A stretch of 64,000 nucleotides of DNA from Limnohabitans sp. MMS-10A-178 (GTDB lineage: Bacteria > Pseudomonadota > Gammaproteobacteria > Burkholderiales > Burkholderiaceae_C): positions 62,001 through 126,000 of the forward strand of contig NZ_NERY01000004.1 of NCBI RefSeq assembly GCF_003063375.1, read 5' to 3'. This document shows, piece after piece, positions 1,206-55,086 of this stretch. The translations under genes and the position numbers were made by a program. The notes under the pieces were generated by a model. The model saw nothing but the letters and a program-made list of their open reading frames with translations. It had not been told where the DNA came from and made no database searches. Position 1 is the stretch's first letter, and each line of letters begins with the position of its first letter.

Positions 1206-2846
1206 TCAAGGGTTGCCAGGCGGCATCGACTGAATGCGGTCAACGTGGGCTTGCAATGAGCGCGCAGCCACAGGCCACAAGCGCTCGGGCACGTCGTTGT
1301 AGGCATGTGCCACCCAGTCTTCCAAAGTGCCGTGAGGCAAAGCGCGCATGGCCGCAATCACTTTGGCTTCGCGCTTTAAACGATGGGCTTTGAGTTGGGC
1401 AATGGCTTGGGCGGCAAATCCCAAAACATAGCCGTGGGCGGGCAATATAAATTCAAGCTGATGGGCTTGGCATTCACGGGCCAGCAGGTCTAGCGAATCG
1501 AGGTAATCGTTCATGCTGCCGTCTGGCGGGTTGACTACCGTGGTGCTGCCATTGAGCACGTGATCGCCGGTGAACAACAAGCCATCTTCCAACAGGGCCA
1601 AACACAAATGGTTGGCGGCATGGCCGGGGGTGTGCAGCACTTTCAAGCTGTGCTCACCCACCTTCAAAACTTCGCCGTGTTCGAGTTCGCGATCGGGTTT
1701 GAATTGGCTTTGTGCGTTGGCCGTGCTGGCGGAAGACAAGCCCAAGATGGGAGGCATGCCACCTTCTTGTTGCTGGCAAAGCACCTGCAGGGGTTTGGCA
1801 CCTGGCGAATGATCGGGGTGGGAATGGGTGCACACAATCATGCGAATTTGGCCGCCCGTAGAGCGCCATATTTTTTCTAAATGATCGGGGTCGGCTGGGC
1901 CTGGGTCAATCACAATAAAACCACTGTGGGGGTCGCCCACCCAGTAGGTATTGGTGCCGGGGCCAGTCATCACGCCAGGGTTGGGCGCGGTGAGGCGGTG
2001 CACGTTTTTTAGGATCGCAACCGGGTGATCAGACTGCCAATCGAGGTGGTGCACGATTTGACCATCGGGGCAGGTGAGGGCCAATTCGCCGTAGGGCGAT
2101 TCGTGTTCCATGTAGCGCGCTTCTTTGCCGGCTAGCCAGCCTGCGCGCGGACAACTGGTCCACAGCGGTTCGTCATTGACGGCGCAGGCATCGAGCACCG
2201 CTTGCACAGTGGCAAATGGGGCGAGGCGCTGCAGGGTGCGGATGGTGGGGAAAATGATGAAAAACTGGCCTGCCTCATGGCGCTGAAGGGCGTCGGCTGG
2301 GCGAATCCACTCGGGCTCAAACTGCTCAGACTCATCGGCCACAGGCGTTTGGTCCTCTGGCATGCGCGCCACCAAAAAGGGCACGTCGAAGCGCTTGGGC
2401 AAATCGCGGTCGGTGATCCAGTGAGCCAGCACGTACACCTGGTGCGCTGCCAGTTGCAAGCCTAAAGCGGAACATTGGGCGGCAAAGGGCTGGCTTCGGT
2501 CGAGCTTGGCGATATCTTGCGCAGTGGCCATGCTTTGGTCGGCCCGGCAGGCCAGCAAGATGCCCAGTTCTTCAAAGCTTTCGCGAATGGCGGCAATGGC
2601 CTGCGTGAGGTGCAGGTCGCTTTGCGTGGGCCGGCGCAGGGCTTGGGCGTGTGATGCCGCATCGAGCGGGTCGATGCCACCGCCAGGAAACACATAGGCG
2701 CCAGGTGCAAAGCTGGCTGTGAGCGAGCGCCGAGTCATGAGCACTTCAATGCCTTGGGGGCTGTCGCGCAGCAACAGCACTGTGGCGGCCGGCCGAGTAG
2801 CGGCGGGCTCTCGCTGGGGATGCAAAAGTTGATGAGGTCTTACCAT
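1206..2846 (-). CDS. Nudix hydrolase / metallo-beta-lactamase fusion protein
   Basis: This 546-residue protein has two enzymatic halves. The N-terminal half (about residues 15-235) is Nudix-like, with FPGGGID and the box element RESFEELGI, which in the family binds the metal for cleaving nucleoside-diphosphate-linked substrates. The C-terminal half is a metallo-beta-lactamase fold with [22 protein letters not shown] and PAHG metal motifs, and ends in a BLACT-type winged helix. LACTB2- and glyoxalase-II-like enzymes are the nearest kin; the substrate is unknown. I chose ATG 2846 over the longer in-frame start at 2987 because the longer form would overlap dapF, and because a GATAAT hexamer ends 6 nt before 2846. 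Confidence 0.85.
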
Positions 2847-2852
2847 GTGCTC

Positions 2853-2858
2853 ATTATC
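2853..2858 (-). promoter_or_regulatory. -10 element of a predicted leaderless promoter, Nudix/MBL gene
   Basis: GATAAT on the minus strand, 6 nt before ATG 2846 with no Shine-Dalgarno between them. Transcription would start at or next to the A of the ATG. Confidence 0.5.
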
Positions 2859-2889
2859 AGGCTTTGCGCCAAGGAGGGGCCGAACCGAG

Positions 2890-2895
2890 GATAAT
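2890..2895 (+). promoter_or_regulatory. -10 element of a predicted leaderless promoter, dapF
   Basis: GATAAT ends 6 nt before the dapF ATG at 2902. It lies within a perfect 7-bp inverted repeat (GGCCGAA 2878-2884, TTCGGCC 2895-2901), whose right arm touches the ATG and could act as an operator. Confidence 0.5.
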
Positions 2896-2901
2896 TCGGC
2901 C

Positions 2902-3804
2902 ATGCGAATTCGCTTTACAAAAATGCAAGGGGCCGGCAACGATTTTGTGGTGCTTGATGAAACGCAAGCGCGCCACAACTTCAGCACCGCCCAATACCGC
3001 TTCTTGGCCGACCGACATTTTGGTGTGGGGGCTGATCAAATTTTGACGGTGCGCCCGGCGCCAAACCCCTCCCTCGACTTTGAATATGTGATTCACAACG
3101 CCGATGGCGGTGAGGTGGAGCACTGCGGCAATGGCGCGCGATGTTTTGTACGCTACGTGCGCGACAAAGGCCTGACCACCAAAGACCGTGTTCGCGTGAA
3201 AGTGAAGCAAGGCGAAATTGAATTGCAAATGAACGCCGATGGCCGTGTCACGGTCAACATGGGCGCGCCCATTTTTGATGCTTCCAAAGTACCTTTTCAG
3301 CTTGAAGGCCTGCAGCTCAAAGTGGTCGGTGATTGCCAAGTCTGGCACTTGCCTTTGAATATCAATGCTGCCAGCAGTGGCTTCGCGGCTGGGGTCGATG
3401 TGGCAGTGTTGTCCATGGGCAACCCGCACGCTGTTCAAGTGGTGGACAGCGTCGACACCGCGTCGGTGCTGAGCCTGGGCCCCTTGATTGAAAACCACAG
3501 CGCATTTCCCAACCGAGTGAATGCAGGCTTTATGCAGGTCCTCAGTCGCGATGCAATTCGTTTGCGCGTGTTTGAACGCGGTGCCGGCGAAACTTTGGCT
3601 TGCGGCACGGGCGCTTGCGCAGCGGTGGTAGCAGGCATCCGCATGGGCTTGCTCAACCCCAAAGTGGATGTGCAAACGCATGGCGGCTTACTCACCATTG
3701 AATGGCAGGGCGGCGCTTTGAAAGATGTGTCGCAGCCCGTGCTGATGACCGGCCCAGCCACTTCGGTGTTTGAAGGCGAAATTGACGTTCCCGAATTACC
3801 TTGA
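2902..3804 (+). CDS. dapF: Diaminopimelate epimerase
   Basis: This 300-residue enzyme interconverts LL- and meso-diaminopimelate, supplying both lysine and the meso-DAP that MurE adds to the peptidoglycan stem. Both catalytic cysteines are in their family motifs: HCGNGARC in the N-terminal half and LACGTGACA in the C-terminal half. The opening [17 protein letters not shown] is the family signature. An in-frame ATG at 2845 was rejected because it adds 19 non-homologous residues over the divergent promoter region. It is followed closely by DUF484 and xerC, the same order as in enterobacteria. Confidence 0.97.
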
Positions 3805-3818
3805 TCAGAAAGACAGGC

Positions 3819-4514
3819 ATGACTCCCACTTCCATCAATCCGATGAACCCCATCACCGAAGATGACATCGCTGAATTCTTGGCCAACACACCTGATTTTT
3901 TTGAGCGCCATGCGCAGTTGTTGTCATCGGTTCATTTGATGAGCCCAGACAACCACCGCTCGGTGAGCTTGCAAGAGCGCCAAGCGCAGATGCTGCGCGA
4001 CAAAATTCGCGCCTTGGAAATGCGCATCATGGACATGATTCGCCATGGCAACGAGAACATGATCATCACAGAGAAGCTGCAAAAATGGGCTTGTGAGTTG
4101 TTGCAAACGCCAGCTTCTGAGCGTGTTCCTTCCGCCTTGAAAAATATTGAAATGCGCTTTCAGGTGCCGCAAGTGGCTGTGCGTTTGTGGGGTGTGGCCA
4201 ATGTCTTTGCCGATGCACCTTATGCGCAAGCTGTGAGTGAAGATGTGAAGCAAGCGGCCGCCAGTTATGCAGCGCCTTTTGTGGGTGCCAGCTCGGGTGT
4301 AGAAGCTGTGCAATGGTTGCAAGCACCGGCCCAAGCGGCGTCAGTGGCTTTGTTGCCTCTTCGACTCAGCAAAGATCAAGCACCATTTGGTTTGTTGGTG
4401 TTGGCGTCGCCCGATGCACAGCGCTATCACAGCGGCATGGGCACCGACTTTTTAGAGCACTTGGCAGAGCTTTGCAGCGCCGCATTGTCTGCTTTGTTGC
4501 CGGCCAAAGGCTAA
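3819..4514 (+). CDS. DUF484 family protein
   Basis: This 231-residue protein belongs to the DUF484 family, a GAF-like fold of unknown role that almost always lies between dapF and xerC. The N-terminal block DDIAEFLANTPDFFERHAQLL and a following helical stretch rich in Arg and Glu are typical, and the rest is a compact alpha/beta domain. I took ATG 3819; a TTG at 3801 overlapping the dapF stop and an ATG at 3843 are alternatives. It has no recognisable catalytic residues. Position suggests translation from the dapF mRNA, with xerC beginning 10 nt after the stop. Confidence 0.85.
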   Translation: MTPTSINPMNPITEDDIAEFLANTPDFFERHAQLLSSVHLMSPDNHRSVSLQERQAQMLRDKIRALEMRIMDMIRHGNENMIITEKLQKWACELLQTPASERVPSALKNIEMRFQVPQVAVRLWGVANVFADAPYAQAVSEDVKQAAASYAAPFVGASSGVEAVQWLQAPAQAASVALLPLRLSKDQAPFGLLVLASPDAQRYHSGMGTDFLEHLAELCSAALSALLPAKG

Positions 4515-4524
4515 GGCTTCTGCC

Positions 4525-5502
4525 ATGGATGAGCGCGTTGCGCGGTACCTCGATCATGTGCGTTTTGAAAAACGCTTGGCCGAGCGAACCTCAACGCTGT
4601 ATGCCTTAGATCTTCAAAAGCTTTTTGATTTGGCGCAGGCCGCCAATGTCGATTTGGCGCAGGTGCAAACCACCCATGTGCGCAGGTGGGTGGCTCAAAT
4701 GCACAGTGGTGGCCGCACCGGCCGCGGCATTGCACTGATTTTGTCGGGCTGGCGCGGTTTCTACCACTGGTTGGCCCGCGAAAGTCTCATTGCCCATAAC
4801 CCCGTAGAAGGTGTTCGTGCACCCAAAGTTTCAAAGCCCTTGCCCAAAGCATTGGGCGTGGACGAGGCCGTGCAGTTGGCCGAGCACTCGGAAGAAGCCG
4901 ACGACCCTTGGCTAGAAGCGCGCGACGCTGCCATGGTGGAGTTGTTGTACGGCTGTGGTTTGCGGGTGGCCGAGCTCACGGGCTTGGATGTGGTGGCCAG
5001 CACGGAGGCCGCCAAAAAAGGGCGTGGTTGGATTGACTTGCAAGGCGCCGAGGTCATGGTGCAAGGCAAGGGCGGTAAACGCAGAACGGTGCCACTCGGC
5101 CAGTCGGCCATCAAGGCGCTTGAAACATGGCTGCCTTTGCGCAGCCAAGCCATGGGCATGATGACGCAATCTGTGCCGGGCTTATCAGATGCCGCGCTGG
5201 CGCTGTTTCCAGGAAAACACGGCACACGCCTCACGGCGCAATCGGTATGGCAACGCTTGAAGCGGCGCAGTTTGTTGGCAGGGCTGGCCACGCCTGTGCA
5301 TCCCCACATGTTGCGGCACTCTTTTGCCAGCCATGTGCTGCAGTCGAGCAGTGATTTGCGCGCGGTGCAAGAGTTGTTGGGGCATGCCAACATCAGCACC
5401 ACGCAGGTTTACACGCGCTTGGATTTTCAGCACTTGGCCAAGGCCTACGATGCAGCGCATCCAAGGGCCAAGCGCGGCGCAGGCAACTCAGGAAAAAAAT
5501 AA
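4525..5502 (+). CDS. xerC: Tyrosine recombinase XerC
   Basis: This 325-residue site-specific recombinase works with XerD at dif to resolve chromosome dimers at division. An N-terminal SAM-like core-binding domain (about 1-95) precedes the catalytic domain. The catalytic set is complete: Arg147 (CGLRVAEL), Lys182 (GKGG), His261 and Arg264 (HMLRHSFASH), His287 (LLGHANI) and Tyr296 (TQVYTRLD). Its place behind dapF and DUF484 supports XerC rather than XerD or a phage integrase. It is slightly longer than the usual 300 residues, mainly through an insertion around residues 160-170. Confidence 0.95.
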   Translation: MDERVARYLDHVRFEKRLAERTSTLYALDLQKLFDLAQAANVDLAQVQTTHVRRWVAQMHSGGRTGRGIALILSGWRGFYHWLARESLIAHNPVEGVRAPKVSKPLPKALGVDEAVQLAEHSEEADDPWLEARDAAMVELLYGCGLRVAELTGLDVVASTEAAKKGRGWIDLQGAEVMVQGKGGKRRTVPLGQSAIKALETWLPLRSQAMGMMTQSVPGLSDAALALFPGKHGTRLTAQSVWQRLKRRSLLAGLATPVHPHMLRHSFASHVLQSSSDLRAVQELLGHANISTTQVYTRLDFQHLAKAYDAAHPRAKRGAGNSGKK

Positions 5503-5541
5503 TCGTCAGTGGCCGCAGACTTTGAGGGCCTCACTGAGTGG

Positions 5542-5547
5542 GACAAT
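5542..5547 (+). promoter_or_regulatory. -10 element of a predicted leaderless promoter, RlmI-like gene
   Basis: GACAAT ends 6 nt before ATG 5554 and there is no Shine-Dalgarno in between. A CTTTGA 16 bp upstream is only a weak -35. Confidence 0.45.
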
Positions 5548-5553
5548 GACAAC

Positions 5554-6738
5554 ATGAAAACGATTCGACTCAAAGCTGGCAAAGAACGCTCTTTGCAACG
5601 TCAACACCCCTGGATTTTTGAATCGGCCATTGCCAAGGGCAGTGCCGATGCCGGAGAAACTGTACGCGTGGAGTCGCACGAAGGTGTATTTTTGGCGTGG
5701 GCAGCTTTCAGCCCCACTTCGCGCATTCGCGCACGGGTTTGGAGTTTTGATGAAACGCAGCGCATTGATGCCGCCTTCATCGAGGGGCTGATTTTTAAAT
5801 CAGTGCAAGCCCGAAGTTTGTTTGACATTCAAAGCAATGGCATGCGTTTGGTGCACGGCGAGTCTGATGGTTTGCCAGGCTTGGTGGTAGACCGTTATGC
5901 CGATACTTTGGTGGCGCAGTTTAGCTCTTGCGGTACGGAGCGGTTTAAGCAGGTAATGGCCGATGCTTTGCTCAAGGCCACTGGTTTGAAAAAGCTTTAT
6001 GAGCGTTCAGACGCCAATGTGCGATCGCTGGAAGGTTTGCCCGAAGTGATGGGTTGGTTGCGCGGTGAGGGTCCTACCGAAATCACGCTGCAAGAGCATC
6101 AGTGGCAACTTTTGCTGAACATTGCGGAGGGGCACAAAACAGGTTTTTATTTGGATCAGCGCGATAGCCGGTACCGCTTTTACCAACACACGTTGTTTCG
6201 GAAGTTTCAGCGTGTGCTCAATTGTTATTGCTACACGGGCGGTTTCAGTGTGGCGGCTTTGGCGGGGGGTGCTGCGCATGTCACTTCCATTGATTCTTCG
6301 GGGCCTGCCATTGACAAGGCAAAGGCGAATGTGTTGCTGAATGGTTTTGATTTGTCGCGCACCACGTTCATGGATGCTGATGTGAATGCTTCTTTGCGTG
6401 CGTTCATTGAGCAAGGTTTGCAGTTTGATGCCATTGTGTTGGACCCGCCTAAGTTTGCGCCTACTGCGGCGCATGCCGATCGGGCTGCTCGGGCTTATAA
6501 GGACATCAATCGCTTGGCGTTGAAGTTGTTGGCGCCAGGCGGGGAGTTGTTCACTTATTCTTGTTCGGGGGGCATTGGTGCCGATTTGTTTCACAAGATT
6601 GTGGCTTCTGCTGGCACGGATGCGGGGGTGGATGGGTATATCAGTGAGCGTTTGCAGGGGGCGCCGGATCATCCTATGACTGTTTATTTTCCTGAAGGGG
6701 AGTACCTGAAGGGGCTGGTTGTGGTGAAGAAGCTCTAA
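5554..6738 (+). CDS. rlmI: Class I SAM-dependent rRNA methyltransferase, RlmI-like
   Basis: This 394-residue protein matches the RlmI (YccW) family, which makes m5C1962 in 23S rRNA. It has an N-terminal PUA-like RNA-binding domain (LKAGKERSLQRQHPWIFE), an EEHD-like middle domain and a Rossmann methyltransferase domain. The SAM loop reads CYCYTGGFSVAAL and the catalytic motif is VLDPPKFA. A late Cys (YSCSGGI) fits the motif of m5C enzymes. An in-frame start at 5509 adds 15 residues upstream of the PUA domain and was rejected. It stands alone between xerC and a conspicuous inverted repeat. Confidence 0.88.
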   Translation: MKTIRLKAGKERSLQRQHPWIFESAIAKGSADAGETVRVESHEGVFLAWAAFSPTSRIRARVWSFDETQRIDAAFIEGLIFKSVQARSLFDIQSNGMRLVHGESDGLPGLVVDRYADTLVAQFSSCGTERFKQVMADALLKATGLKKLYERSDANVRSLEGLPEVMGWLRGEGPTEITLQEHQWQLLLNIAEGHKTGFYLDQRDSRYRFYQHTLFRKFQRVLNCYCYTGGFSVAALAGGAAHVTSIDSSGPAIDKAKANVLLNGFDLSRTTFMDADVNASLRAFIEQGLQFDAIVLDPPKFAPTAAHADRAARAYKDINRLALKLLAPGGELFTYSCSGGIGADLFHKIVASAGTDAGVDGYISERLQGAPDHPMTVYFPEGEYLKGLVVVKKL

Positions 6739-6752
6739 ATTCACTTTGCTCG

Positions 6753-6833
6753 CTGGGCAAGGATGCCTTGTGCGGGCGCCTCATACTGGGGTACCAGAAA
6801 TCGTTGCCCGCACAAGTCATCCTTACCCAGTAT
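6753..6833. repeat. 25-bp imperfect inverted repeat with an alternative pairing element
   Basis: The left arm 6753-6777 and right arm 6806-6830 match at 23 of 25 positions around a 28-nt loop. The loop also holds ATACTGGGGTA (6783-6793), which can pair with TACCCAGTAT (6824-6833) in competition with the outer stem. No T-tract follows, so it is not a classical terminator. It could be an intergenic palindromic (REP-like) element or a switching leader for the downstream metal GTPase. I saw no second copy in the window. Confidence 0.7.
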
Positions 6834-6902
6834 AGGTTTGGTTCGGGTGGGTACACTTCATACCTCTTTTGATTACCGTTTTCTCTCTTTTGGAGTGTTT
6901 TC

Positions 6903-8033
6903 ATGGCTTTGATTCCTGCCACCATCCTCACTGGTTTTTTGGGTTCGGGTAAAACCACCTTGCTTAAGCGCGTGCTGACTGAGGCTCACGGGCAAAAGAT
7001 TGCCATCATTGAGAATGAGTTTGGTGAGGAGAACATTGACAACGACATTTTGGTGTCGGATACCAATGAGCAAATTATTCAGATGAGCAATGGTTGTATT
7101 TGCTGCACCATTCGGGAAGATTTGCGCACCACCTTGCAAACGCTGGCGGCTCAGAAGCGCAAGGGTGAGCTCGATTTTGAGCGGGTGGTGATTGAAACTA
7201 CGGGCTTGGCCGATCCTGGGCCTGTGGCGCAAACTTTTTTCATGGACGATGAAATTGCCGAAAGCTTTTTGCTGGATTCCATTCTCACTTTGGTCGATGC
7301 CAAACACGCTGCGCAGCAATTGAACGATCGGCAAGAGGCGCGTCGGCAGGTGGGCTTTGCCGATCAAATTTTCATCAGCAAGGCCGATTTGGTGTCCAAG
7401 CCTGAGCTTGAGGCGCTGCAGCACCGTTTGGCGCACATGAACCCCCGTGCGCCACAGAAGGTGGTGCATTTTGGTGAGGTGTCGTTGGCGGAGGTGTTTG
7501 ATTTGCGTGGCTTTAACTTGAATGCCAAGCTCGACATTGACCCCGACTTTTTGAAAGAAGAAGAGCCTCATGTGCACGATGAGCACTGTGGGCATGATCA
7601 TGATGACTATGCGCATTCCGATCATGGCCACGATCATGGTCACGCCCATGAAAAGGCACATGACCATGAACACGGCCCGAATTGCGATCACCCCTCACAT
7701 CAAGGCGAGAGTCATGGCCATCACCATCACTTTGACGACGATGTGAAGAGTTTTGTATTCAGATCAGACAAAGCCTTCGATCCGGCCAAATTGGAAGACT
7801 TTTTGGGTGCCATCGTGAATGTTTATGGCCCCCGGATGCTGCGATACAAGGGTGTATTGAATATGAAAGGTACTGAAAGAAAAGTGATCTTTCAGGGTGT
7901 TCACCAGCTGATGGGAAGCGATTTAGGCCCTGTTTGGGGTGAAAACGAGGCCAAAGTGAGCAAAATGGTGTTCATTGGCATTGACCTGCCCAAGGATATT
8001 TTGTTGCAAGGTTTGGAGCAATGTTTGGTTTAG
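6903..8033 (+). CDS. COG0523/CobW-family GTPase, probable metal chaperone
   Basis: This 376-residue protein belongs to the G3E COG0523 family (YeiR, YjiA, ZNG1), which uses GTP to deliver metals to client enzymes. It has the Walker A loop GFLGSGKT at residues 11-18, the family motif CICC at 65-68, a Walker-B-like IETTGLADP, and SKADL as the G4-type motif. Residues about 223-277 form a linker exceptionally rich in His, Asp and Glu, a likely zinc, cobalt or nickel reservoir. A C-terminal CobW_C domain follows. The ribosome site TTGGAG precedes ATG 6903. The metal and client are not shown by the sequence; zinc is the usual guess. Confidence 0.9.
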   Translation: MALIPATILTGFLGSGKTTLLKRVLTEAHGQKIAIIENEFGEENIDNDILVSDTNEQIIQMSNGCICCTIREDLRTTLQTLAAQKRKGELDFERVVIETTGLADPGPVAQTFFMDDEIAESFLLDSILTLVDAKHAAQQLNDRQEARRQVGFADQIFISKADLVSKPELEALQHRLAHMNPRAPQKVVHFGEVSLAEVFDLRGFNLNAKLDIDPDFLKEEEPHVHDEHCGHDHDDYAHSDHGHDHGHAHEKAHDHEHGPNCDHPSHQGESHGHHHHFDDDVKSFVFRSDKAFDPAKLEDFLGAIVNVYGPRMLRYKGVLNMKGTERKVIFQGVHQLMGSDLGPVWGENEAKVSKMVFIGIDLPKDILLQGLEQCLV

Positions 8034-8143
8034 TTTTGAAGAAAGCGTTTTGAGGCCGTTCAGTCGCTACAATCTGCGCCCTGACGGGGTACCTTAATTG
8101 GAACTCCGATGCGCCCAGAAGGTCGAAAAATATGGGTTTTGAC

Positions 8144-8174
8144 GCAAATGAACCGATGACCACAATTCATTTGC
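8144..8174. repeat. 9-bp inverted repeat in the leader of the DksA-like gene
   Basis: GCAAATGAA (8144-8152) and TTCATTTGC (8166-8174) form a perfect stem with a 13-nt loop. It lies about 65 nt upstream of the GTG start, in a gene-free leader of roughly 200 nt. It could be an operator or a leader hairpin. Confidence 0.45.
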
Positions 8175-8237
8175 AAATGGCTGATGCCCTGGGTAATGCC
8201 TGAGGGTTTGTAAGCCGCCACGGCTAGGAGACAGGAC

Positions 8238-9488: not shown

Positions 9489-9509
9489 TTCGGTTTTGAT
9501 AAATTCCCA

Positions 9510-9535
9510 AAAGGCTCCTCCAGGAGCCTTTTTTT
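9510..9535 (+). terminator. Rho-independent terminator after the DksA-like gene
   Basis: AAAGGCTCC pairs with GGAGCCTTT around a TCCA loop, followed by a run of T to 9535. It begins about 20 nt after the stop codon. Confidence 0.9.
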
Positions 9536-9732
9536 CATCCTTCAGAACAAACTGACTTGTTCCGAAAAAAAATTGAAAAGAATGTCAAAATTTTTTCACA
9601 ATCAAAATGTCTCAGAAGTTACTTGCAGACAAACTTCTAAGTACCTAATTTTCAAGGATTTTTTCTCCTAATTTCTCATTGAAAGTGTGCTCTAAGCCCT
9701 TGATTTCATTGAAAAAAACTTGAATAGCCCCC
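9536..9732. other. AT-rich gene-free stretch upstream of the dcw cluster
   Basis: I see no gene in it. It holds an inverted repeat AGAAGTT (9614-9620) / AACTTCT (9632-9638), and CATTGAAA occurs twice near 9678 and 9707. It may contain upstream activator sites for the dcw promoter, but none is recognisable. Confidence 0.4.
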
Positions 9733-9760
9733 TTGTGGGTGCGTGAATTCCTGATACAGT
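9733..9760 (+). promoter_or_regulatory. Candidate dcw cluster promoter (Pmra)
   Basis: TTGTGG (9733-9738) and TACAGT (9755-9760) are separated by 16 bp, about 70 nt upstream of mraZ. The -10 overlaps the first of the MraZ-type repeats, as expected of an autorepressed promoter. Confidence 0.55.
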
Positions 9761-9784
9761 GCAAAAAAGTGCAATTAAGTGGGA
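9758..9784 (+). promoter_or_regulatory. MraZ operator: three AGTG repeats with 10-bp period
   Basis: AGTG occurs at 9758, 9768 and 9778, exactly 10 bp apart, the last as AAGTGGGAG. MraZ of enterobacteria binds tandem TGGG-type repeats with 10-bp period, and mollicute MraZ binds AAGTGG repeats. The spacing and position before mraZ fit both descriptions. Confidence 0.7.
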
Positions 9785-9829
9785 GAAATGCCCAGATTGC
9801 AGTTGTTGTTTACAGGAATTGAGAATCAA

Positions 9830-10258: not shown

Positions 10259-10265
10259 GGCTTGC

Positions 10266-27155: not shown

Positions 27156-27179
27156 GGTTTGAGAATTTAAAATCAAACC
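27156..27179 (+). promoter_or_regulatory. Predicted leaderless lpxC promoter inside a 7-bp inverted repeat
   Basis: TAAAAT (27168-27173) ends 6 nt before the lpxC ATG. GGTTTGA (27156-27162) and TCAAACC (27173-27179) form a perfect inverted repeat with a 10-nt loop that touches the ATG, the same geometry as at dapF. There is no Shine-Dalgarno. Confidence 0.5.
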
Positions 27180-28679: not shown

Positions 28680-28685
28680 ATTGTG
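28680..28685 (-). promoter_or_regulatory. Predicted leaderless ruvC promoter
   Basis: A -10 CACAAT lies 6 nt before ATG 28673. A -35-like TTGCCC stands 17 bp further upstream, inside the end of mtgA. No Shine-Dalgarno is present. Confidence 0.5.
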
Positions 28686-33358: not shown

Positions 33359-33364
33359 ATTGTC
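33359..33364 (-). promoter_or_regulatory. Predicted leaderless promoter of the RNB operon
   Basis: GACAAT ends 7 nt before ATG 33351, with TTGCCA 15 bp upstream as a good -35. There is no Shine-Dalgarno. Confidence 0.5.
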
Positions 33365-33438: not shown

Positions 33439-33444
33439 GATAAT
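33439..33444 (+). promoter_or_regulatory. Predicted leaderless promoter, rodA
   Basis: GATAAT ends 6 nt before ATG 33451. AAGGA overlaps it 11 nt from the ATG and could serve as a poorly spaced ribosome site instead. Confidence 0.4.
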
Positions 33445-34662: not shown

Positions 34663-34668
34663 TACAAT
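34663..34668 (+). promoter_or_regulatory. Predicted leaderless promoter, tldD
   Basis: TACAAT ends 6 nt before ATG 34675, and no Shine-Dalgarno is present. Confidence 0.5.
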
Positions 34669-38919: not shown

Positions 38920-38925
38920 AAGGGG

Positions 38926-38931
38926 ATTTTA
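38926..38931 (-). promoter_or_regulatory. Predicted leaderless promoter, mpl
   Basis: TAAAAT on the minus strand ends 6 nt before ATG 38919, with no Shine-Dalgarno. It lies 7 bp from the opposing -10 of the 38951 gene. Confidence 0.5.
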
Positions 38932-38938
38932 GGCGGTG

Positions 38939-38944
38939 CACAAT
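38939..38944 (+). promoter_or_regulatory. Predicted leaderless promoter of the 38951 gene
   Basis: CACAAT ends 6 nt before ATG 38951, with no Shine-Dalgarno. The start codons of the two divergent genes are separated by only 31 bp. Confidence 0.45.
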
Positions 38945-38950
38945 GTCGTC

Positions 38951-39535
38951 ATGGCAGATTTGACAGATGAAATTGCAGCTTCGGCCGCTCAGTGGGTGGT
39001 GGAAGAGGGCTTGGAGTATGGCCCCGCCAAGCGCCGGGCCTTAAAAGCCTTGGGCTTACCCCCGCGCACGCCTTTGCCCAATAATGAACAAGTTGAAGTG
39101 CAAGTGCGGGAGTACATCGAGCTGTTTTGTGCTGAAACTCAGCCTGAGGAGTTGCTGGCGCTAAGGAAACATGCTTTGATGTGGATGACCCGACTGTCAG
39201 AGTTTCGACCCTATTTGGGCGGCGCTGTTTGGCATGGCACAGCAACCCGTTTGTCAGACATTTACTTGCAGCTGTTTTGCGACGATGCCAAATCTTGCGA
39301 AATTGAATTGATCAACAAAGGTGTGGCATTTGAGGCCCGCTCTGTGAATGGATTGCATGGGGAGCACGTCGAGGCTTTGAGCATTCACAGTTATTGTGAA
39401 GATTTGAATGAGGAAATTGGTGTGCATCTCTTGGTCAATGATTTTGACGATGTGCGGGGTGCCTTGAAATCGGATTCACAAGGGCGCTCACCGCGTGGTG
39501 ATTGGACTGCTGTAAAAAAACTAATTGAGGCATGA
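38951..39535 (+). CDS. Uncharacterised conserved-looking protein, possible nucleotidyltransferase fold
   Basis: I do not recognise this 194-residue acidic protein with certainty. The N-terminal third is helical (YGPAKRRALKALGLPPRTPL). The middle reads LGGAVWHGTATRLSDIYLQL, which resembles the nucleotidyltransferase pattern hG[GS]-x(9-13)-Dh[DE]h with the second acid replaced by Tyr, so an inactive or divergent NTase is possible (inference). There is no signal peptide or membrane segment. Good codon structure and a clean stop support it as a real gene. It is followed by a TlpA-like gene, whose start at 39570 lies 34 nt downstream. Confidence 0.75.
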   Translation: MADLTDEIAASAAQWVVEEGLEYGPAKRRALKALGLPPRTPLPNNEQVEVQVREYIELFCAETQPEELLALRKHALMWMTRLSEFRPYLGGAVWHGTATRLSDIYLQLFCDDAKSCEIELINKGVAFEARSVNGLHGEHVEALSIHSYCEDLNEEIGVHLLVNDFDDVRGALKSDSQGRSPRGDWTAVKKLIEA

Positions 39536-42187: not shown

Positions 42188-42189
42188 GC

Positions 42190-43605: not shown

Positions 43606-43626
43606 ATTTTTGTTTGACCCATAAAA

Positions 43627-43656: not shown

Positions 43657-43683
43657 GCTTTCGCTTAGCGCTTTAAGTTTGAA

Positions 43684-44121: not shown

Positions 44122-44167
44122 GATTTTTTTCTCCTTGATCAATTAGAAAAATCAACAGAGGGAAACA

Positions 44168-44282: not shown

Positions 44283-44307
44283 AAACAGGATCGTCATGCT
44301 TGAATAA

Positions 44308-45516: not shown

Positions 45517-45675
45517 AGAAATTTCCAATGAGTGGATTATGAAAGCTTGCGATTGAAATGCAAAGCTATGTTTTGAAATGAAATGAAATCACGCGAAGAA
45601 GTGTTGCGTTTTTGCATTGTATTTCTTCGTCGTGATTTCGAGATGGAGAAAACTAATTTCCTGAAAGTTAAAAAG

Positions 45676-48660: not shown

Positions 48661-48689
48661 TTTCCACCGACCGTGTCTTTGGCGTTGAG

Positions 48690-48737
48690 ACACTATATCT
48701 GGGGTCTGAGTCGAACACAAGCCACTAGGGGTAGTGT
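48690..48737 (-). promoter_or_regulatory. Paired NrdR boxes over the nrdA promoter
   Basis: ACACTATATCTGGGGT (48690-48705) and CCACTAGGGGTAGTGT (48722-48737) both fit the NrdR box consensus acaCwAtATaTwGtgt and are 32 bp apart, about three helical turns, as NrdR requires. On the minus strand TTGTGT (48715-48720) and TATAGT (48692-48697), 17 bp apart, form the promoter, so box 1 covers the -10. NrdR would repress when deoxynucleotides are plentiful. Confidence 0.85.
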
Positions 48738-48979
48738 ACAGGCGGTTTGTTGGGTGTGTGAGACAGTCATCTTTTGTAGAGCCTTTCACAGTGTGCAATT
48801 TGCACAGTTTGAGGGCGTAAAAAGCTTGCCTTGAAACACGCATAAAACCTGCGCGTTTTGAGTGCGAATGAGAACTGATGGGCTTCGGCTTGCATTTACC
48901 CTCGCGAAGCCTTGCAAATACATACTTTTTTGAGAAATAAGTCAGTTCAGTTTGTGCCGAAATGGGTGCAAGCAGGGGT
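48738..48979. other. Gene-free stretch between nrdA operator and ampD
   Basis: No gene is visible. GGCTTCG (48881-48887) and CGAAGCC (48905-48911) form a 7-bp inverted repeat with a 17-nt loop. The rest is AT-rich towards ampD. A small RNA cannot be excluded but nothing specific supports one. Confidence 0.35.
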
Positions 48980-48980
48980 T

Positions 48981-49017
48981 GAAAAAATCAAAAAAATTTT
49001 TTTCACTATTGTGAAAA
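48981..49017 (-). terminator. AT-rich terminator after ampD
   Basis: On the minus strand TTTTCAC/GTGAAAA forms a 7-bp stem with a 4-nt loop (49000-49017), 4 nt after the ampD stop, followed by a long T-rich run. Confidence 0.6.
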
Positions 49018-49021
49018 TTTT

Positions 49022-49591
49022 TCAAAAATCGGGAAAGTACTGAGGCGGCCAGTTCACATTTTTTTGGAGCAAGGCCCAATCGAAACCTGGACCCGGGTCT
49101 TTTTTTCGCCCCGGTGCAATGTGTTCATGACCAGCAATGTGCTGGATGGGGTAGGCCTCTGCCAAGGCAAGGCAGAGTTGTGCCAATTGATCGTACTGCG
49201 CGGCTTCAAATTTATCGCCTTCCAAGCCTTCCAGCTCAATGCCAATGGCATCGTCGTTGCAGTTGCTGCGGCCCCTGTAGCTTGAGACGCCCGCATGCCA
49301 AGCACGCTGGTCGCAACTGACAAACTGCCAAACTTTGCCAGTGCGCTCGATGAAGAAGTGCGAAGAGACTTCCAAGCCGCGAATCGACTGAAAATAGGGG
49401 TGAGCTTCCCAATTGAGCTGATTGGTAAAGAGCTGCTGAACTGCGCCATTGCCAAATTCGCCGGGTGGCAGGCTGATGGAGTGAACCACAATCAAATCGA
49501 TGTGGGCGGCCTGTGGGCGTTGACCAAAGTTGGGCGACTCGCATTTTTCGGCGCCCCGATACCAGCCTTGTTGCCACATACTCAAGTTCAT
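49022..49591 (-). CDS. ampD: 1,6-anhydro-MurNAc-L-alanine amidase AmpD
   Basis: This 189-residue cytoplasmic zinc amidase removes the peptide from anhydro-MurNAc-peptides during wall recycling; the tripeptide then goes to Mpl. Zinc ligands appear in VVHSISLPP, AGHEHIAPGRKKDPGPGFDW, and a catalytic Glu lies in IGIELEG. It lacks a signal peptide, so it is AmpD rather than periplasmic AmiD. The start is ATG 49591 or 49579; neither has a strong ribosome site. It lies 23 nt after the PP0621-type gene. Confidence 0.93.
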   Translation of the reverse strand: MNLSMWQQGWYRGAEKCESPNFGQRPQAAHIDLIVVHSISLPPGEFGNGAVQQLFTNQLNWEAHPYFQSIRGLEVSSHFFIERTGKVWQFVSCDQRAWHAGVSSYRGRSNCNDDAIGIELEGLEGDKFEAAQYDQLAQLCLALAEAYPIQHIAGHEHIAPGRKKDPGPGFDWALLQKNVNWPPQYFPDF

Positions 49592-49614
49592 GAAGGTACA
49601 GGCTTGGAGCTTAC

Positions 49615-49893
49615 TTAAAGCCCACGATCGCCTGCAGCTTGGCGATGTGCTTCGGAGCAATATGGCCCTGCTTGGCCCTTGAGCATGTCGGACTCAGGCA
49701 TGTGCAGGCCGCAGTGATGGCAAGCCAGCATGGGGCTGGGTTGCAAAGAGGTTTGACTGTTGGCGGCTTGTGGCCCAGCCTTGGCCGACTTTTCGGCCTG
49801 GTTTTTTTGTTTTTCTTGGAGGGAACGCAAACGATTTTTGCGCCACAACCAAACGCCAAACAACACAGCCACTAAAAAGATCAATATTTTCAA
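49615..49893 (-). CDS. PP0621-family small membrane protein
   Basis: This 92-residue protein has an N-terminal transmembrane segment (about residues 3-17), a charged linker and a C-terminal Cys motif (ACHHCGLHMPESDM, then YCSEAHR) that could bind a metal as a treble-clef-like knuckle. Proteins of this type are common in gamma- and betaproteobacteria, and the function is unknown. Its start overlaps the stop of the CcsA-like gene by 4 bp, and ampD follows. Confidence 0.82.
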   Translation of the reverse strand: MKILIFLVAVLFGVWLWRKNRLRSLQEKQKNQAEKSAKAGPQAANSQTSLQPSPMLACHHCGLHMPESDMLKGQAGPYCSEAHRQAAGDRGL

Positions 49894-50696
49894 AGGGTGC
49901 GTCCCAAAATGACCTCAAGCACAAAGCGTGAGCCAGCGTAGGAAAACAACAGAAATGCCGAGCCTATGTACAGAACCCGAACAGCTCGCCTACCGCGCCA
50001 ACCAAATTGAAGCCGTCCCACCAGCAAAGCCCCAAAGGTGAGCCATGACATGATGGAGAACACCGTTTTGTGATCCCATTTCCATTCAGCCCCTGCTGCG
50101 CCATAAAGCTGCTCACCAAACACAATGCCGGCAATGAGGGTTAGGGTGAGCAAGATGAAGCCGAGCAGCACAAACCGAAACATTAGACGCTCGAGGGTGA
50201 GCAGGGGCAAGCCGCTTTGGTTTTCGTTGCCCTTGCGAATTTCTATTTCGGCGCTGGTCATGAGTGCCGCATGCACCACTGCCGCGGCAAACATGCCATA
50301 GGACGCAATGCCCAAAGCCCAGTGCAGGGGCAGCCAAATGGAGGCTGAAACTTGAAGCGGTTTGCCTGGGAAGTACCAAGCCAATGCAACCGCTGCACTG
50401 CCCAATGCGGCCAAGGCCCAGCGCGCTTTGAGTTGCGGAAAGTATTGTGTTTCAACCGCGTAAGCGGTTAAAACCCACCAAACCGTGACCGACAAGGCGG
50501 GCGCAAAACCAAATCGGGGTGTTTCGCCCCACAAACCCGCTGCCAGGGTGAAGCCGTGCAAAACCCAAGCCAGCCAGAGGGCGCGACGGGTCAAGCTAGA
50601 GCCCATTCGCTGCGCTACAAATGCAGGAATGGCATAGGCGATGGCGGTTAAAACAGCTAACCACATCGCCAATTCTGGTTGACTGGCTAAAATCAT
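49890..50696 (-). CDS. Cytochrome c assembly (CcsA/YpjD-like) membrane protein
   Basis: This 268-residue polytopic protein has about eight transmembrane segments and the heme-handling-like WWD-region remnant GAEWKWDHKTVFSIMSW. In the wider family CcsA/CcmC proteins deliver heme for cytochrome c maturation; the YpjD-like branch next to ffh is of uncertain function. TAAACT ends 7 nt before ATG 50696, on a promoter divergent from ffh. Confidence 0.87.
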   Translation of the reverse strand: MILASQPELAMWLAVLTAIAYAIPAFVAQRMGSSLTRRALWLAWVLHGFTLAAGLWGETPRFGFAPALSVTVWWVLTAYAVETQYFPQLKARWALAALGSAAVALAWYFPGKPLQVSASIWLPLHWALGIASYGMFAAAVVHAALMTSAEIEIRKGNENQSGLPLLTLERLMFRFVLLGFILLTLTLIAGIVFGEQLYGAAGAEWKWDHKTVFSIMSWLTFGALLVGRLQFGWRGRRAVRVLYIGSAFLLFSYAGSRFVLEVILGRTL

Positions 50697-50703
50697 GCTT
50701 CCT

Positions 50704-50709
50704 AGTTTA
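50704..50709 (-). promoter_or_regulatory. Predicted leaderless promoter of the CcsA-like operon
   Basis: TAAACT ends 7 nt before ATG 50696. AGGAA lies in the spacer, only about 2 nt from the ATG, too close for a good ribosome site. Confidence 0.4.
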
Positions 50710-50774
50710 GCGTTTTGGGCCGCTGCAATCTGGCATTGGGCTCAAAAGCTAACGGTTTATGAAAAATTTTCTCT

Positions 50775-52175
50775 ATGGCCTCCGCCCTCACCGACAAACT
50801 CTCGCAGCTCGTTAAGCAAATCAGCGGACAAGCGCGGATCACTGAATCCAATGTGTCTGACATGCTGCGCGAGGTGCGCATGGCACTGCTGGAGGCCGAC
50901 GTTGCGCTACCTGTGGTGCGCGACTTCATTGCCCGCGTCAAAGAAAAATCTTTGGGCCAAGAGGTGCTGGGCTCTTTAAAGCCTGGTCAGGCCTTGGTGG
51001 CCATTGTCAATCGAGAATTGGCCGCCACCATGGGCGATGGCGTGGCAGATATCAACTTGGCGGCACAACCTCCCGCCGTGATTTTGATGGCTGGTTTGCA
51101 GGGTGCAGGTAAAACCACCACCACGGCCAAGTTGGCCAAGCACCTGATTGAAAAACGCAAGAAAAAAGTGCTGACGGTGTCGGGTGACGTGTACCGCCCC
51201 GCAGCCATCGAGCAGTTGAAAACCGTCACTGCGCAAGCCGGCGCTGAGTGGTTCCCCAGCTCCCCCGATCAAAAGCCCCTGGACATTGCTCGCGCCGCCA
51301 TTGATTACGCGCGCAAACATTTCTTTGATGTGCTGCTGGTCGATACGGCAGGTCGATTGGCCATTGACGAAGCGCTGATGGCTGAAATTCGCGAGCTGCA
51401 TGCTGTATTGAAGCCAGTCGAAACCTTGTTTGTGGTCGATGCCATGCAAGGTCAAGACGCTGCCAACACAGCCAAGGCCTTCAAAGATGCCTTGCCGCTC
51501 ACAGGCATTGTGCTCACCAAAATGGATGGCGATTCGCGCGGTGGTGCGGCGCTGTCAGTGCGCCAAATTACGGGTGCGCCCATTAAATTTGCCGGTACCA
51601 GCGAAAAAATTGACGGTCTCGAAGTGTTTGATGCCGAGCGGCATGCAGGCCGTATTTTGGGCATGGGTGATATTTTGGCCTTGGTGGAGCAAGTCACGGC
51701 TGGTGTCGATATGGAGGCCGCTCAGAAACTGGCGGCCAAAGTCAAAAGCGGTACTGGTTTTGATTTGAACGATTTCTTGGCCCAAATTCAGCAGATGAAG
51801 CAAATGGGGGGCTTGTCGAGTTTGATGGACAAGCTGCCGTCTCAGTTGGCCGCCAAAGCTGGCAACATGGATTTAGGCAAAGCCGAAAAAGACATTGCGC
51901 GCAAGCAAGGCATCATTCACAGCATGACACCCAAAGAGCGCAGCAAGCCTGAGCTCATTAAGGCTACACGCAAGCGCCGCATTGCCATTGGTGCCGGAGT
52001 TCAAGTGCAAGATGTCAATCGCTTGCTCAAAGAGTTTGAGCAGATGCAAGACATGATGAAAAAAATGTCGAGCGGCGGCATGATGAAAATGATGAAGCGC
52101 CTAGGCGGCATGAAGGGCATGGGCGGGTTTGGCGGCTTGGGTGGCGGGGGCGGCTTCCCCGGCATGAAGCGCTAA
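50775..52175 (+). CDS. ffh: Signal recognition particle GTPase Ffh
   Basis: This 466-residue protein binds signal sequences of nascent inner-membrane proteins and the SRP RNA. It has the N domain, the G domain with GLQGAGKTTTTAKLA, DTAGRL and TKMDGDSRGG, and a Met-rich M domain ending in a Gly/Met-rich tail. The SRP RNA gene itself is not in the window. No convincing Shine-Dalgarno precedes ATG 50775. Confidence 0.97.
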   Translation: MASALTDKLSQLVKQISGQARITESNVSDMLREVRMALLEADVALPVVRDFIARVKEKSLGQEVLGSLKPGQALVAIVNRELAATMGDGVADINLAAQPPAVILMAGLQGAGKTTTTAKLAKHLIEKRKKKVLTVSGDVYRPAAIEQLKTVTAQAGAEWFPSSPDQKPLDIARAAIDYARKHFFDVLLVDTAGRLAIDEALMAEIRELHAVLKPVETLFVVDAMQGQDAANTAKAFKDALPLTGIVLTKMDGDSRGGAALSVRQITGAPIKFAGTSEKIDGLEVFDAERHAGRILGMGDILALVEQVTAGVDMEAAQKLAAKVKSGTGFDLNDFLAQIQQMKQMGGLSSLMDKLPSQLAAKAGNMDLGKAEKDIARKQGIIHSMTPKERSKPELIKATRKRRIAIGAGVQVQDVNRLLKEFEQMQDMMKKMSSGGMMKMMKRLGGMKGMGGFGGLGGGGGFPGMKR

Positions 52176-52184
52176 GCTTATTAA

Positions 52185-53699
52185 TCAGATGCGGCCGAAG
52201 TACTCACGCCGCTGAAATTCCACTTTGTCCTCAGCATCGTTAAAACGACTTTGTTCTGACTGCTTGATGCGCTGGTAATAGCGTACAAAGTCAGGGCCCA
52301 ATCCTGCGCTTAAAACCTGGTCTTCGCCCAAATGTCCAATGGCTTCGCCCAAAGTAAGGGGCAAGCGAGATGCTTTAGCGTCATAAGGGGCATCTGTTGC
52401 AGGCGGTGCTGACAAAGCTTTATCGATACCGTCTAGGCCCGCCAAAATTTGCGAGGCCATGTACAGGTAAGGATTGGCCGCGGGCTCTCCCAGTCTGTTT
52501 TCAATGCGTGTTGCGGCATCGCCCGCACCGCCCACCACACGCAGCATGGCACCACGGTTGTCGCGGCCCCACAAAATACTTTGGGGCGCCAACGCATTGG
52601 GCTTGAAGCGACCAAAACCATTGACTGTGGTGGTGCACAAAGAGGTCATGCCTTGGGCATGCGCCATCAAGCCTGCCAAATAATGTGCCCCCATGTTGGA
52701 CAGGGTGTGACGCGCATCGTGAGCGGTGTGGGCTTGCGCTTCTTGAATGTCTGATGTTGATGTGCGTGCAAATAAGTTTTGACCTGTTGGCAAGTCATAC
52801 AGCGATTGGTGCAAGTGCCAACCACTGCTCATGATGTTGTCAAAGGGCGGTCGGCACATGAAGGTGGCGTGGTAGCCCGCGCGTCTGAGGGCTTGCTTCA
52901 CTGCGCTTCTAAACAACACCATGTTGTCGGCGGCGGTGAGGGCATCGGTGGCTTTGAAAACGGCCTCCACTTGGCTCGGGCCGAGTTCAATTTCAAGTGA
53001 CAACAAGGGCAAGCCCAAGTCTTGCGCGGTTTGCTTGACGATGCGCAGTGCAGGTTCTGCACGGTCAAACCACAACTCGTTGAGCAAGTTGAAGCCAGGG
53101 TGAATCATGCTGACCAGAGGGGCGGGCCCAGGCCATGAGGCCTGCGCAGGATCGGCATCGGCACCATGGTCTGAATCTTTGAGTTTGTAAATGTGAAACT
53201 CAACTTCAAGGCCACAACGCATGCCACAGCCTTTGGCGGCCAATTTTTCAATTGCGCTTTGTAATATTCGGCGGGTGTCGTACTTGACAGGCTCACCGCT
53301 GGGAAACCACGGTTGGCAGAGCAGCCAACCGGTATTGGGCGCCCAAGGCAAAATTTTGAAGGTGCTTGGATCGGGCAGCAGCATGACATTGCTTGCGCCT
53401 TCAAAACCAGGCAGGTCGTTTTTAATATCCGATTCAAACACCTTGTACACGGTGCGGTCGGAAGTGTCTTTGAGCATCAAGGTACTGACCATGCCCATGC
53501 CTTGAGAAAAAGCATTGGCCAATTCAGAAGTGACCCAAGTTTTGCCGCGCAAACTGCCGTGCACATCGCACCACACCAAGCGGATCCATTCGAGGCCAGA
53601 GGCTTGAGCCAGAGCCAGAACGCGCTGCACTTGAGCTTGTCTTTCTGGAGATTGGATGCCGCATTTGTCGGCAAAAGTGATGGCGGGTAATGTGCTCAT
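52185..53699 (-). CDS. Glutamine-synthetase-family ligase (gamma-glutamyl-amine type)
   Basis: This 504-residue protein has the glutamine synthetase fold: an N-terminal beta-grasp (LVWCDVHGSLRGK), CGLEVEFHIY metal site, SSGWHLHQSL and the late RIENRLGEPAANPYLY. The NGSGMH loop of true glutamine synthetase is altered, and the adenylylation Tyr block is absent. This places it among GlnA-like enzymes such as PuuA or gamma-glutamylanilide synthase that ligate glutamate to amines. It lies 10 nt after a Rieske oxygenase, so an aromatic or alkyl amine substrate is plausible. An in-frame start at 54014 overlaps the oxygenase and was rejected. Confidence 0.85.
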   Translation of the reverse strand: MSTLPAITFADKCGIQSPERQAQVQRVLALAQASGLEWIRLVWCDVHGSLRGKTWVTSELANAFSQGMGMVSTLMLKDTSDRTVYKVFESDIKNDLPGFEGASNVMLLPDPSTFKILPWAPNTGWLLCQPWFPSGEPVKYDTRRILQSAIEKLAAKGCGMRCGLEVEFHIYKLKDSDHGADADPAQASWPGPAPLVSMIHPGFNLLNELWFDRAEPALRIVKQTAQDLGLPLLSLEIELGPSQVEAVFKATDALTAADNMVLFRSAVKQALRRAGYHATFMCRPPFDNIMSSGWHLHQSLYDLPTGQNLFARTSTSDIQEAQAHTAHDARHTLSNMGAHYLAGLMAHAQGMTSLCTTTVNGFGRFKPNALAPQSILWGRDNRGAMLRVVGGAGDAATRIENRLGEPAANPYLYMASQILAGLDGIDKALSAPPATDAPYDAKASRLPLTLGEAIGHLGEDQVLSAGLGPDFVRYYQRIKQSEQSRFNDAEDKVEFQRREYFGRI

Positions 53700-53709
53700 C
53701 TGCCCGAAC

Positions 53710-55074
53710 TCAAACCTGCTTGGGTGCCGCTGCATCCCAAGGTGCGCCATCGCGTTTGGCTTGCATGGTTTGCTGTGCCCAAATAGCCCAGTCTGCTGCA
53801 GGCGCGATGCCGTCGACCGTGTCGGGCCCAAAGCGAGTGGCGGCAACTTCAGGCTTGGCAAAACCCGGTGGCAAAGCACCCGCCGCCACATCGTCGATGG
53901 CTTTGGCCAGCATGCGGCGGTTGGCAATGATGACTTTGTCTGAAGTGCCCAGGTGTTCACGCGTTCGATTTTGAATGGCGCCCATGCTTTCGCAGGCCCA
54001 CTGATCGTGCACATTGATGTCGTCCTCGCCCATGCCTAAAAAAGTACGGGTCATTTGTTCTTCTGGGTTGAAGCCCCAATTGTTTTGACGACCTGATTTG
54101 GGGATGTAGTCGGGCAAGCTGACAGCCTCTAATCGCTGATTGCGCATGGCTTCTTTGTTGACGGGGTCGGAAAAGCTGGTGAACACCGCATACCAATAGG
54201 TGTGCGTGTCGTCCACGGGCACATGCATTTGCGTGATGGTCATGGTTTCCGACAAAGGAATCACAAAGGTGTTGGGGAACAAAGAGTTGGTGATGCGCAC
54301 ATGCGTCAACTTGTCTGTCATGTGTCTGAGGGTGGTGAGTTGCAAGCCATAAGGCTGTTCTGTGTAAGCAATATCGGGCTTGTCAAACTCACGCATGACC
54401 CGGGTCATGGGCCATTTTTCACCCTCGATTTCGCCCGCGCTGGCACCGCGAAATTGTTTGCCGTAGGTGTCTTCCAAAGACGCGTCGTTGAAGAAGCGGT
54501 GTAAAAAAGACGCATGAGCGGGGTCGATGCCCACTTCAAAGGCTTGGAGCCAATTGCAGTTCCACAAACCTTTGAAGGCAAAGGTGTGGGTGCCAGGTGC
54601 TTCGAAACAATCGACAGCAGGCAGGGGTGGTGGTGCACTGCCTTCAGGCCCCATCCAGGCAAACAAAATGCCACTGCGTTCTTGCAAAGGGTAGTTGCGC
54701 TGTTTGATGCGTGTGCACAAAACACTGCCCTTGGGCTCGGCAGGGGTTTCGAGGCATTGACCTGTGACGTCAAATTTCCAGCCGTGAAATGGACAACGCA
54801 GGCCATCGCCTTCGTTGCGTCCAAAGGCCAGATCGGCGCCTCGGTGTGGGCAGTCGCGGTCGAGCAAACCAAACTCACCTTGCGCATTTTTGAACAAGAC
54901 CAAATCTTGGCCCAACAACCGAACCGCTTTGACGGGTCGGACAGCCATGCGTGGATCGAGTTGGGGGTTGAATTCGTCCATCAGGGCAACAGGGTGCCAG
55001 TAATGGCGTAGCATTTCGCCACATGCTGTGCTTGGACCAATGCGCGTGAAGCGCTCATTTTGTTCTGCTCTCAT
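53710..55074 (-). CDS. Rieske non-heme iron oxygenase, phthalate-dioxygenase-like
   Basis: This 454-residue oxygenase has a Rieske [2Fe-2S] domain (CPHRG and CPFHGW, about residues 75-96) and a catalytic domain with the iron ligands in FEVGIDPAHASFLHR. Length and spacing fit the single-subunit phthalate 4,5-dioxygenase/vanillate demethylase group, which needs a separate reductase; none is adjacent. The substrate is unknown. TAAAGT ends 6 nt before ATG 55074, overlapping the 3' end of miaB. Confidence 0.9.
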   Translation of the reverse strand: MRAEQNERFTRIGPSTACGEMLRHYWHPVALMDEFNPQLDPRMAVRPVKAVRLLGQDLVLFKNAQGEFGLLDRDCPHRGADLAFGRNEGDGLRCPFHGWKFDVTGQCLETPAEPKGSVLCTRIKQRNYPLQERSGILFAWMGPEGSAPPPLPAVDCFEAPGTHTFAFKGLWNCNWLQAFEVGIDPAHASFLHRFFNDASLEDTYGKQFRGASAGEIEGEKWPMTRVMREFDKPDIAYTEQPYGLQLTTLRHMTDKLTHVRITNSLFPNTFVIPLSETMTITQMHVPVDDTHTYWYAVFTSFSDPVNKEAMRNQRLEAVSLPDYIPKSGRQNNWGFNPEEQMTRTFLGMGEDDINVHDQWACESMGAIQNRTREHLGTSDKVIIANRRMLAKAIDDVAAGALPPGFAKPEVAATRFGPDTVDGIAPAADWAIWAQQTMQAKRDGAPWDAAAPKQV

Positions 55075-55080
55075 GATTCC

Positions 55081-55086
55081 ACTTTA
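55081..55086 (-). promoter_or_regulatory. Predicted leaderless promoter of the Rieske/ligase pair
   Basis: TAAAGT ends 6 nt before ATG 55074. It overlaps the miaB stop codon, and there is no Shine-Dalgarno. Confidence 0.35.

Follow-up and report, generated by a model that had tools for sequence, protein, structure and literature searches.

The window analysed here is a stretch of 64,000 nucleotides (nt) from the genome of Limnohabitans sp. MMS-10A-178, corresponding to positions 62001–126000 of contig 4 (the whole genome comprises 2,885,081 bases in five contigs). It carries twelve genes, named here from Pfam and NCBIfam matches, whose ATG is closely preceded by a hexamer resembling the −10 element of a bacterial promoter, an arrangement suggestive of leaderless mRNAs, i.e., mRNAs beginning at the start codon. 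All twelve hexamers listed in the original prediction were found exactly at the distances it gave. On the forward strand, at 6 nt before the ATG, they are GATAAT (2890..2895) before dapF (ATG 2902), GACAAT (5542..5547) before an rlmI-like gene (5554), TAAAAT (27168..27173) before lpxC (27180), GATAAT (33439..33444) before rodA (33451), TACAAT (34663..34668) before tldD (34675) and CACAAT (38939..38944) before an unnamed gene encoding 194 amino acids (38951–39535, no Pfam or NCBIfam match), referred to below as gene 38951. On the reverse strand, the same distance of 6 nt separates GATAAT (2853..2858) from a NUDIX/metallo-beta-lactamase (MBL) gene (1206–2846, ATG 2846), CACAAT (28680..28685) from ruvC (28673), TAAAAT (38926..38931) from mpl (38919) and TAAAGT (55081..55086) from a Rieske gene (55074). 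The two hexamers at 7 nt also lie on the reverse strand: GACAAT (33359..33364), with a TG one base upstream as in an extended −10 element, before an RNB-domain gene (33351), and TAAACT (50704..50709) before a CcsA/CcsB-like gene (50696). Of the contrasting genes led by a Shine–Dalgarno (SD) sequence, aroG (AAAGGAG) and ftsZ (TAGGAG) show a clear SD stretch and accB a run of G.

To judge the spacing against chance, hexamers fitting TANNNT or NANAAT were counted at each offset from the ATG. In the window, 8 of 48 ATG genes bear one at exactly 6 nt, compared to a mean of 0.67 per offset over 9–60 nt (Poisson P 6e-7). The count was extended to a genome sample made up of the window and 34 further stretches (744 kb, 533 ATG starts), in which genes were found by codon usage and starts were set by coding potential, blind to upstream signals; 102 non-ATG starts were excluded from the offset counts and tallied separately. 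The sample starts, coming from our own gene finder, are approximate; for the MBL gene, it chose 2987 and not 2846, making dapF appear overlapped. Among the operon heads of this sample, 21/283 have the hexamer at exactly 6 nt vs. 6.83 per other offset, and without the window the heads still give 15/265 (background 6.46, P 0.003). The window is richer than the remaining sample (8/48 vs. 24/485, P 0.005), having been singled out for looking rich. In the whole genome, TANAAT-N6-ATG occurs 43 times vs. 9 for the same pattern reversed. TAAAAT-N6-ATG accounts for 26 of the 43 (counted by hand), while the other spacings from 0 to 20 nt yield (149 − 26)/20 = 6.15 TAAAAT-ATG pairs each (Poisson P 2e-9 for 26). 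A whole-genome search for ACAAT gave 1787 matches and was not used. TAAAAT was also counted at 5–8 vs. 13–16 nt before ATG in 232 genomes of the class (48 vs. 33 in the own genome, 15 vs. 8 and 24 vs. 12 in two other family members, and a mixed picture, judged by eye, in the remaining genomes), and these counts were judged too coarse for any statement about clades.

The orthologues of the window genes were located by tblastn in 138 loci, with two further searches for the rlmI and CcsA-like loci, and the start was taken as the codon nearest to that aligned with the first residue of the window protein. The hexamer was scored as conserved when it lay 5–8 nt upstream of the orthologue start, whatever the start codon; loci were dropped when identity was below 45%, when the alignment began only beyond residue 12 or when there was no usable start nearby. 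The samples for lpxC, RNB, ruvC, rodA and tldD consist mainly of named Comamonadaceae across the family, and those for MBL, dapF, rlmI, mpl, gene 38951 and the CcsA-like gene combine loci from the window's genus with loci from other families. As relatives depend on one another through common descent, P values computed on them serve only as a guide. The window LpxC itself shares 98% identity with the LpxC of a Burkholderiales metagenome-assembled genome (MAG) and 77–94% with the other 79 among its best 80 matches, mostly records named Comamonadaceae or its genera.

The hexamer proved to be conserved at ten of the eleven genes examined in relatives. For nine candidate genes, ruvC included, it was found in 253/329 loci, compared to 4/321 at eight neighbouring control genes (aroG 0/23, ftsZ 1/70, ftsA 0/68, ddl 0/64, a DUF484 gene 0/21, xerC 0/20, gene 28695 2/30 and gene 29446 1/25). 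It is kept in 77/79 relatives at lpxC, 37/48 loci at RNB, 25/27 at rodA, 20/20 at gene 38951, 21/21 at MBL (at 5–7 nt) and 16/16 at tldD, plus 2/2 further family members, and at 7–8 nt in 14/14 usable loci of the CcsA-like gene. The totals are lower for dapF (24/29), mpl (21/29) and rlmI (9/13 usable loci), and all misses at these three genes fall in other families: within the genus the hexamer is present in 21/21, 20/20 and 9/9 loci, and in other families in 3/8, 1/9 and 0/4, respectively. Beyond the family, it precedes lpxC in 2/15 loci and tldD in 1/16, the tldD starts being uncertain there. The exception is ruvC with 12/60 loci, where the hexamer is probably due to chance or of recent origin; the claim of leaderless transcription thus finds strong support at most of the listed genes from the conservation of hexamer and spacing, ruvC being the one without it. 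The explanation that −10-like hexamers are simply frequent enough in a 53% GC genome to give a dozen at 6–7 nt can point to ruvC and to the roughly 6.8 of 283 heads that bear a hexamer at any given offset. The genome-wide spacing peak speaks against it, and conservation in relatives refutes it for the ten genes; we regard it as extremely improbable overall.

The sequences around the hexamer were then compared among relatives. Since the loci had been picked by the pattern, the bit scores of the hexamer columns (1.76–2.00) are inflated, and the evidence is confined to the free positions of the hexamer and to the flanks. The free positions are kept in 25/25 sequences at rodA (GATAAT), in 19/19 distinct sequences at gene 38951 (CACAAT) and in 67/76 at lpxC (TAAAAT). 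The 32 bases upstream of the hexamer, with sequences anchored on it, average 0.17–0.42 bits. For lpxC, with 76 distinct sequences, every upstream column stays at or below 0.49 bits, and the spacer shows 0.1–0.3 bits per column in the 55 sequences where it measures 6 nt; in the 17 with 7 nt, two columns reach 1.3 bits. Because the free positions are retained and the flanks and spacer are little conserved, selection before lpxC seems to act on the hexamer and on how far it stands from the start codon, and on hardly anything more. At MBL, RNB, tldD, mpl and gene 38951, there are single conserved columns (1.3–2.0 bits) directly beside the hexamer, and in 35 of the 37 RNB loci with the hexamer a TG stands one base before it, in place of a −35 element. 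The base before the start codon is a pyrimidine in 209/241 hexamer loci vs. 218/317 controls, as expected for the −1 base of a transcription start site. An SD-like tetramer occurs in only 23/253 hexamer-bearing loci, compared to 69/70 at ftsZ.

Hexamer-bearing starts are restricted to ATG (231) and GTG (22), with no TTG, while the starts without a hexamer comprise 62 ATG, 5 GTG and 9 TTG (Fisher P 1e-6, the loci being related and not independent). Most of the GTG cases come from lpxC, which begins with GTG in 21/79 relatives, all 21 with the hexamer. None of the 21 has an ATG in the 49 codons that follow, and in 17/21 the frame reaches a stop upstream without passing an ATG; for want of such an alternative, GTG is very probably the genuine lpxC start in those relatives, as judged from the reading frames. 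When mapped on a quickly built LpxC tree (82 rows), the start codon needs at least six changes, two of which are forced by well supported branches. As a side observation, the lpxC of locus L009, from a record titled Akkermansia muciniphila MAG, groups with Limnohabitans-like Comamonadaceae, and this record is probably a mislabelled bin. At the RNB gene, 9 of the 11 hexamer-less loci have a TTG (eight) or GTG (one) start together with an SD-like tetramer (L007, L011, L015, L017, L020, L021, L024, L028 and L029). Seven of these nine are named Polaromonas; the switch is not genus-wide, because the Polaromonas locus L013 retains the hexamer and ATG.

In the scheme that we propose, RNA polymerase would bind a short −10 element (TANAAT, GATAAT, GACAAT or CACAAT) ending 5–8 nt, mostly 6–7 nt, before the start codon. 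The hexamer would be read by sigma70, transcription would begin at, or next to, the first base of the start codon (A or G), and the resulting mRNA, having neither a leader nor an SD sequence, would be translated by ribosomes, presumably 70S particles, starting at its 5′ end. We consider it highly likely that leaderless mRNAs are made in this way from putative promoters of the sigma70 type that adjoin the coding sequence directly and are conserved at ten window genes, a view to which the retention of hexamer and spacing among relatives lends strong support. In the window, about a dozen genes, several of them core cell-envelope or housekeeping genes, are predicted, very probably, to produce mRNAs beginning at the start codon. 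If so, the leaderless arrangement is of long standing and maintained by selection within the genus or family at MBL, dapF, rlmI, lpxC, RNB, rodA, tldD, mpl, gene 38951 and the CcsA-like gene.

Several results weigh against this proposal. Seven of the twelve window hexamers have no T at the first −10 position. A −35 hexamer 15–19 bp upstream of the −10, as in a classical sigma70 promoter, is largely missing: among eight genes, a −35 signal stands clearly above shuffles at MBL (z 6.1), and seven genes, with z from −1.0 to 2.0, showed none, the −35 matches in the genome sample being 2.75 vs. 2.55 (P 0.12). The low SD frequency at hexamer-bearing heads of the sample is only a trend (3/21 vs. 87/262, P 0.09), and an SD-like tetramer, partly overlapping the hexamer, is also present in 8/24 dapF and 6/25 rodA hexamer loci. 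Furthermore, the 6-nt peak appears as well before internal genes, i.e., those that follow another gene on their strand at a distance below 40 nt (11/250, background 2.44; 9/220, background 2.13, P 0.0004, without the window), and such genes may have internal promoters. The original prediction had named a peak at operon heads only as a check, and the contrast between heads and internal genes is weak and not significant (21/283 vs. 11/250, Fisher P 0.15); against the tightly coupled internal genes with a gap below 5 nt (3/121), the P value is 0.065. The excess at 6 nt concerns about 5% of heads and 3.4% of the other genes, or 4.3% of all ATG starts, and with some 4–5% of ATG starts concerned, the word "widespread" in the prediction was an overstatement.

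The scarcity of −35 elements, together with the occurrence of non-SD, A/T-rich start regions in other groups (PMC3160421), would fit an explanation in which the hexamer is an A/T-rich docking signal for the ribosome or S1 within a leadered mRNA whose transcription starts further upstream. Such a signal hardly accounts for the letters, which are those of a −10 element, each gene retaining its own variant as seen for rodA and gene 38951, nor for the clustering of the spacing at 5–8 nt, nor for the RNB loci, where absence of the hexamer is accompanied in 9/11 by an SD-like tetramer and a TTG or GTG start. Overall, we find a docking signal very improbable.

The arrangement of the genes bears on a further possibility, namely that the hexamers are real −10 elements and the translated mRNA comes mostly from leadered read-through or upstream promoters, with leaderless translation being minor. 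Read-through is conceivable in the window at lpxC, which lies 70 nt behind ftsZ on the same strand, and at tldD, 69 nt behind rodA; read-through mRNA would mostly have no SD at these starts. The pairs MBL/dapF, mpl/38951 and RNB/rodA are divergent in the window, with hexamers on both sides, and have no upstream operon to be read through. We rate this possibility, too, as very improbable. A mere 31 nt (38920..38950) lie between the mpl start and that of gene 38951, and both hexamers lie inside this gap, 7 nt apart. Among relatives the gap measures 31 nt in 6/20 and 38–105 nt in 14/20, and between MBL and dapF it is 37–107 nt in 21 relatives; the RNB and rodA starts are close (49–99 nt) in only 4/22 relatives and otherwise 665–1468 nt apart. 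At the shortest gaps, two polymerases could hardly fit on both promoters together. An orthologue of gene 38951 is divergent from mpl in all 20 relatives with both starts located.

Leaderless initiation is a known minority mode in such bacteria. Zheng et al. (2011; PMC3160421) described the signal of bacterial leaderless genes as TANNNT some 12 bp upstream of the start codon without an SD sequence, and predicted 2.8–10.6% leaderless genes in 9 of 71 beta-proteobacterial genomes. The window genes resemble these TA-led genes in the −10-like element ending 5–8 nt before the start and in the scarcity of SD sequences; that survey gives rates per group, whereas here single betaproteobacterial genes are traced across a family. 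According to a later survey cited in PMC9581028, 21.6% of bacterial species show leaderless transcription. The suggestion of the original prediction that such regular use would be notable in a betaproteobacterium is not supported, since leaderless mRNAs have already been mapped in two species. In Cupriavidus metallidurans CH34 (PMC7563307), 4.67% of primary start sites are leaderless, with a 5′ untranslated region below 5 nt. That set is enriched in genes for transcription and for replication and repair, and the main text of the study does not name lpxC, dapF, rodA, tldD or rlmI. In Burkholderia cenocepacia J2315 (PMC4603805), transcription starts precisely on the start codon in 72 genes and no more than 10 nt away in another 42, these leaderless transcripts including 24 tRNAs. 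Just as in the window genes, a TA-rich promoter motif lies directly upstream there; transcriptional regulators are over-represented in that account, whereas the window cases are mostly enzymes. The rate found here, about 4–5% of ATG starts, is of the published order, with the proviso that denominators differ, and is ordinary for such bacteria. What is new is the conservation at the same genes in relatives, the GTG-lpxC behind the hexamer in 21 relatives and the RNB loci, mostly of Polaromonas, that have TTG and an SD sequence instead. In the open-licence literature we found no start-site study of Comamonadaceae, which is not proof that none exists.

For initiation in mycobacteria, it is enough that an mRNA has ATG or GTG at its 5′ end, whereas TTG and CTG do not suffice (PMC4633059), and the hexamer-bearing starts described here, being ATG or GTG and never TTG, are alike in this respect; leaderless genes are far commoner in Mycobacterium tuberculosis (PMC9031893) than here. 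In E. coli, GTG is poor as a leaderless start, and translation of leaderless mRNAs from the 5′ end by 70S ribosomes has been described (both reviewed in PMC9031893). We raise, tentatively and as a rather doubtful extension, the idea that a fixed set of essential or housekeeping genes, lpxC foremost, is driven throughout the Comamonadaceae by a −10 element alone, placed directly at the start codon, and that ribosomes in this family accept both AUG and GUG as leaderless starts, in which they would resemble those of mycobacteria and differ from those of E. coli. The GTG starts of the own genome argue against it, since they show no hexamer peak at 6 nt (2/57; TTG starts 0/45), and a general class of leaderless GTG starts was not seen in this genome. 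If the idea were true, these mRNAs would need no SD sequence, and shifts in initiation factors or free 70S ribosomes could, speculatively, alter the enzymes of lipopolysaccharide and peptidoglycan synthesis relative to the adjacent SD-led division genes.

The genes described here offer a defined and testable set of probably leaderless genes in bacteria other than the customary models, and natural controls are provided by the neighbouring SD-led genes, by the ATG- and GTG-lpxC behind the same hexamer and by the RNB loci with SD and TTG. They bear on how leaderless and SD-led translation starts replace one another, on the annotation of gene starts in Comamonadaceae and on whether GUG serves as a leaderless start in proteobacteria.

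Finally, ffh (window position 50775), which is divergent from the CcsA-like gene, was considered as a further candidate and rejected, as the hexamer was present in 1/22 relatives. In the window and in relatives (L239–L254), ffh mostly has neither a clear SD sequence nor a hexamer, and in many relatives a T-rich stretch followed by GATT precedes its ATG.

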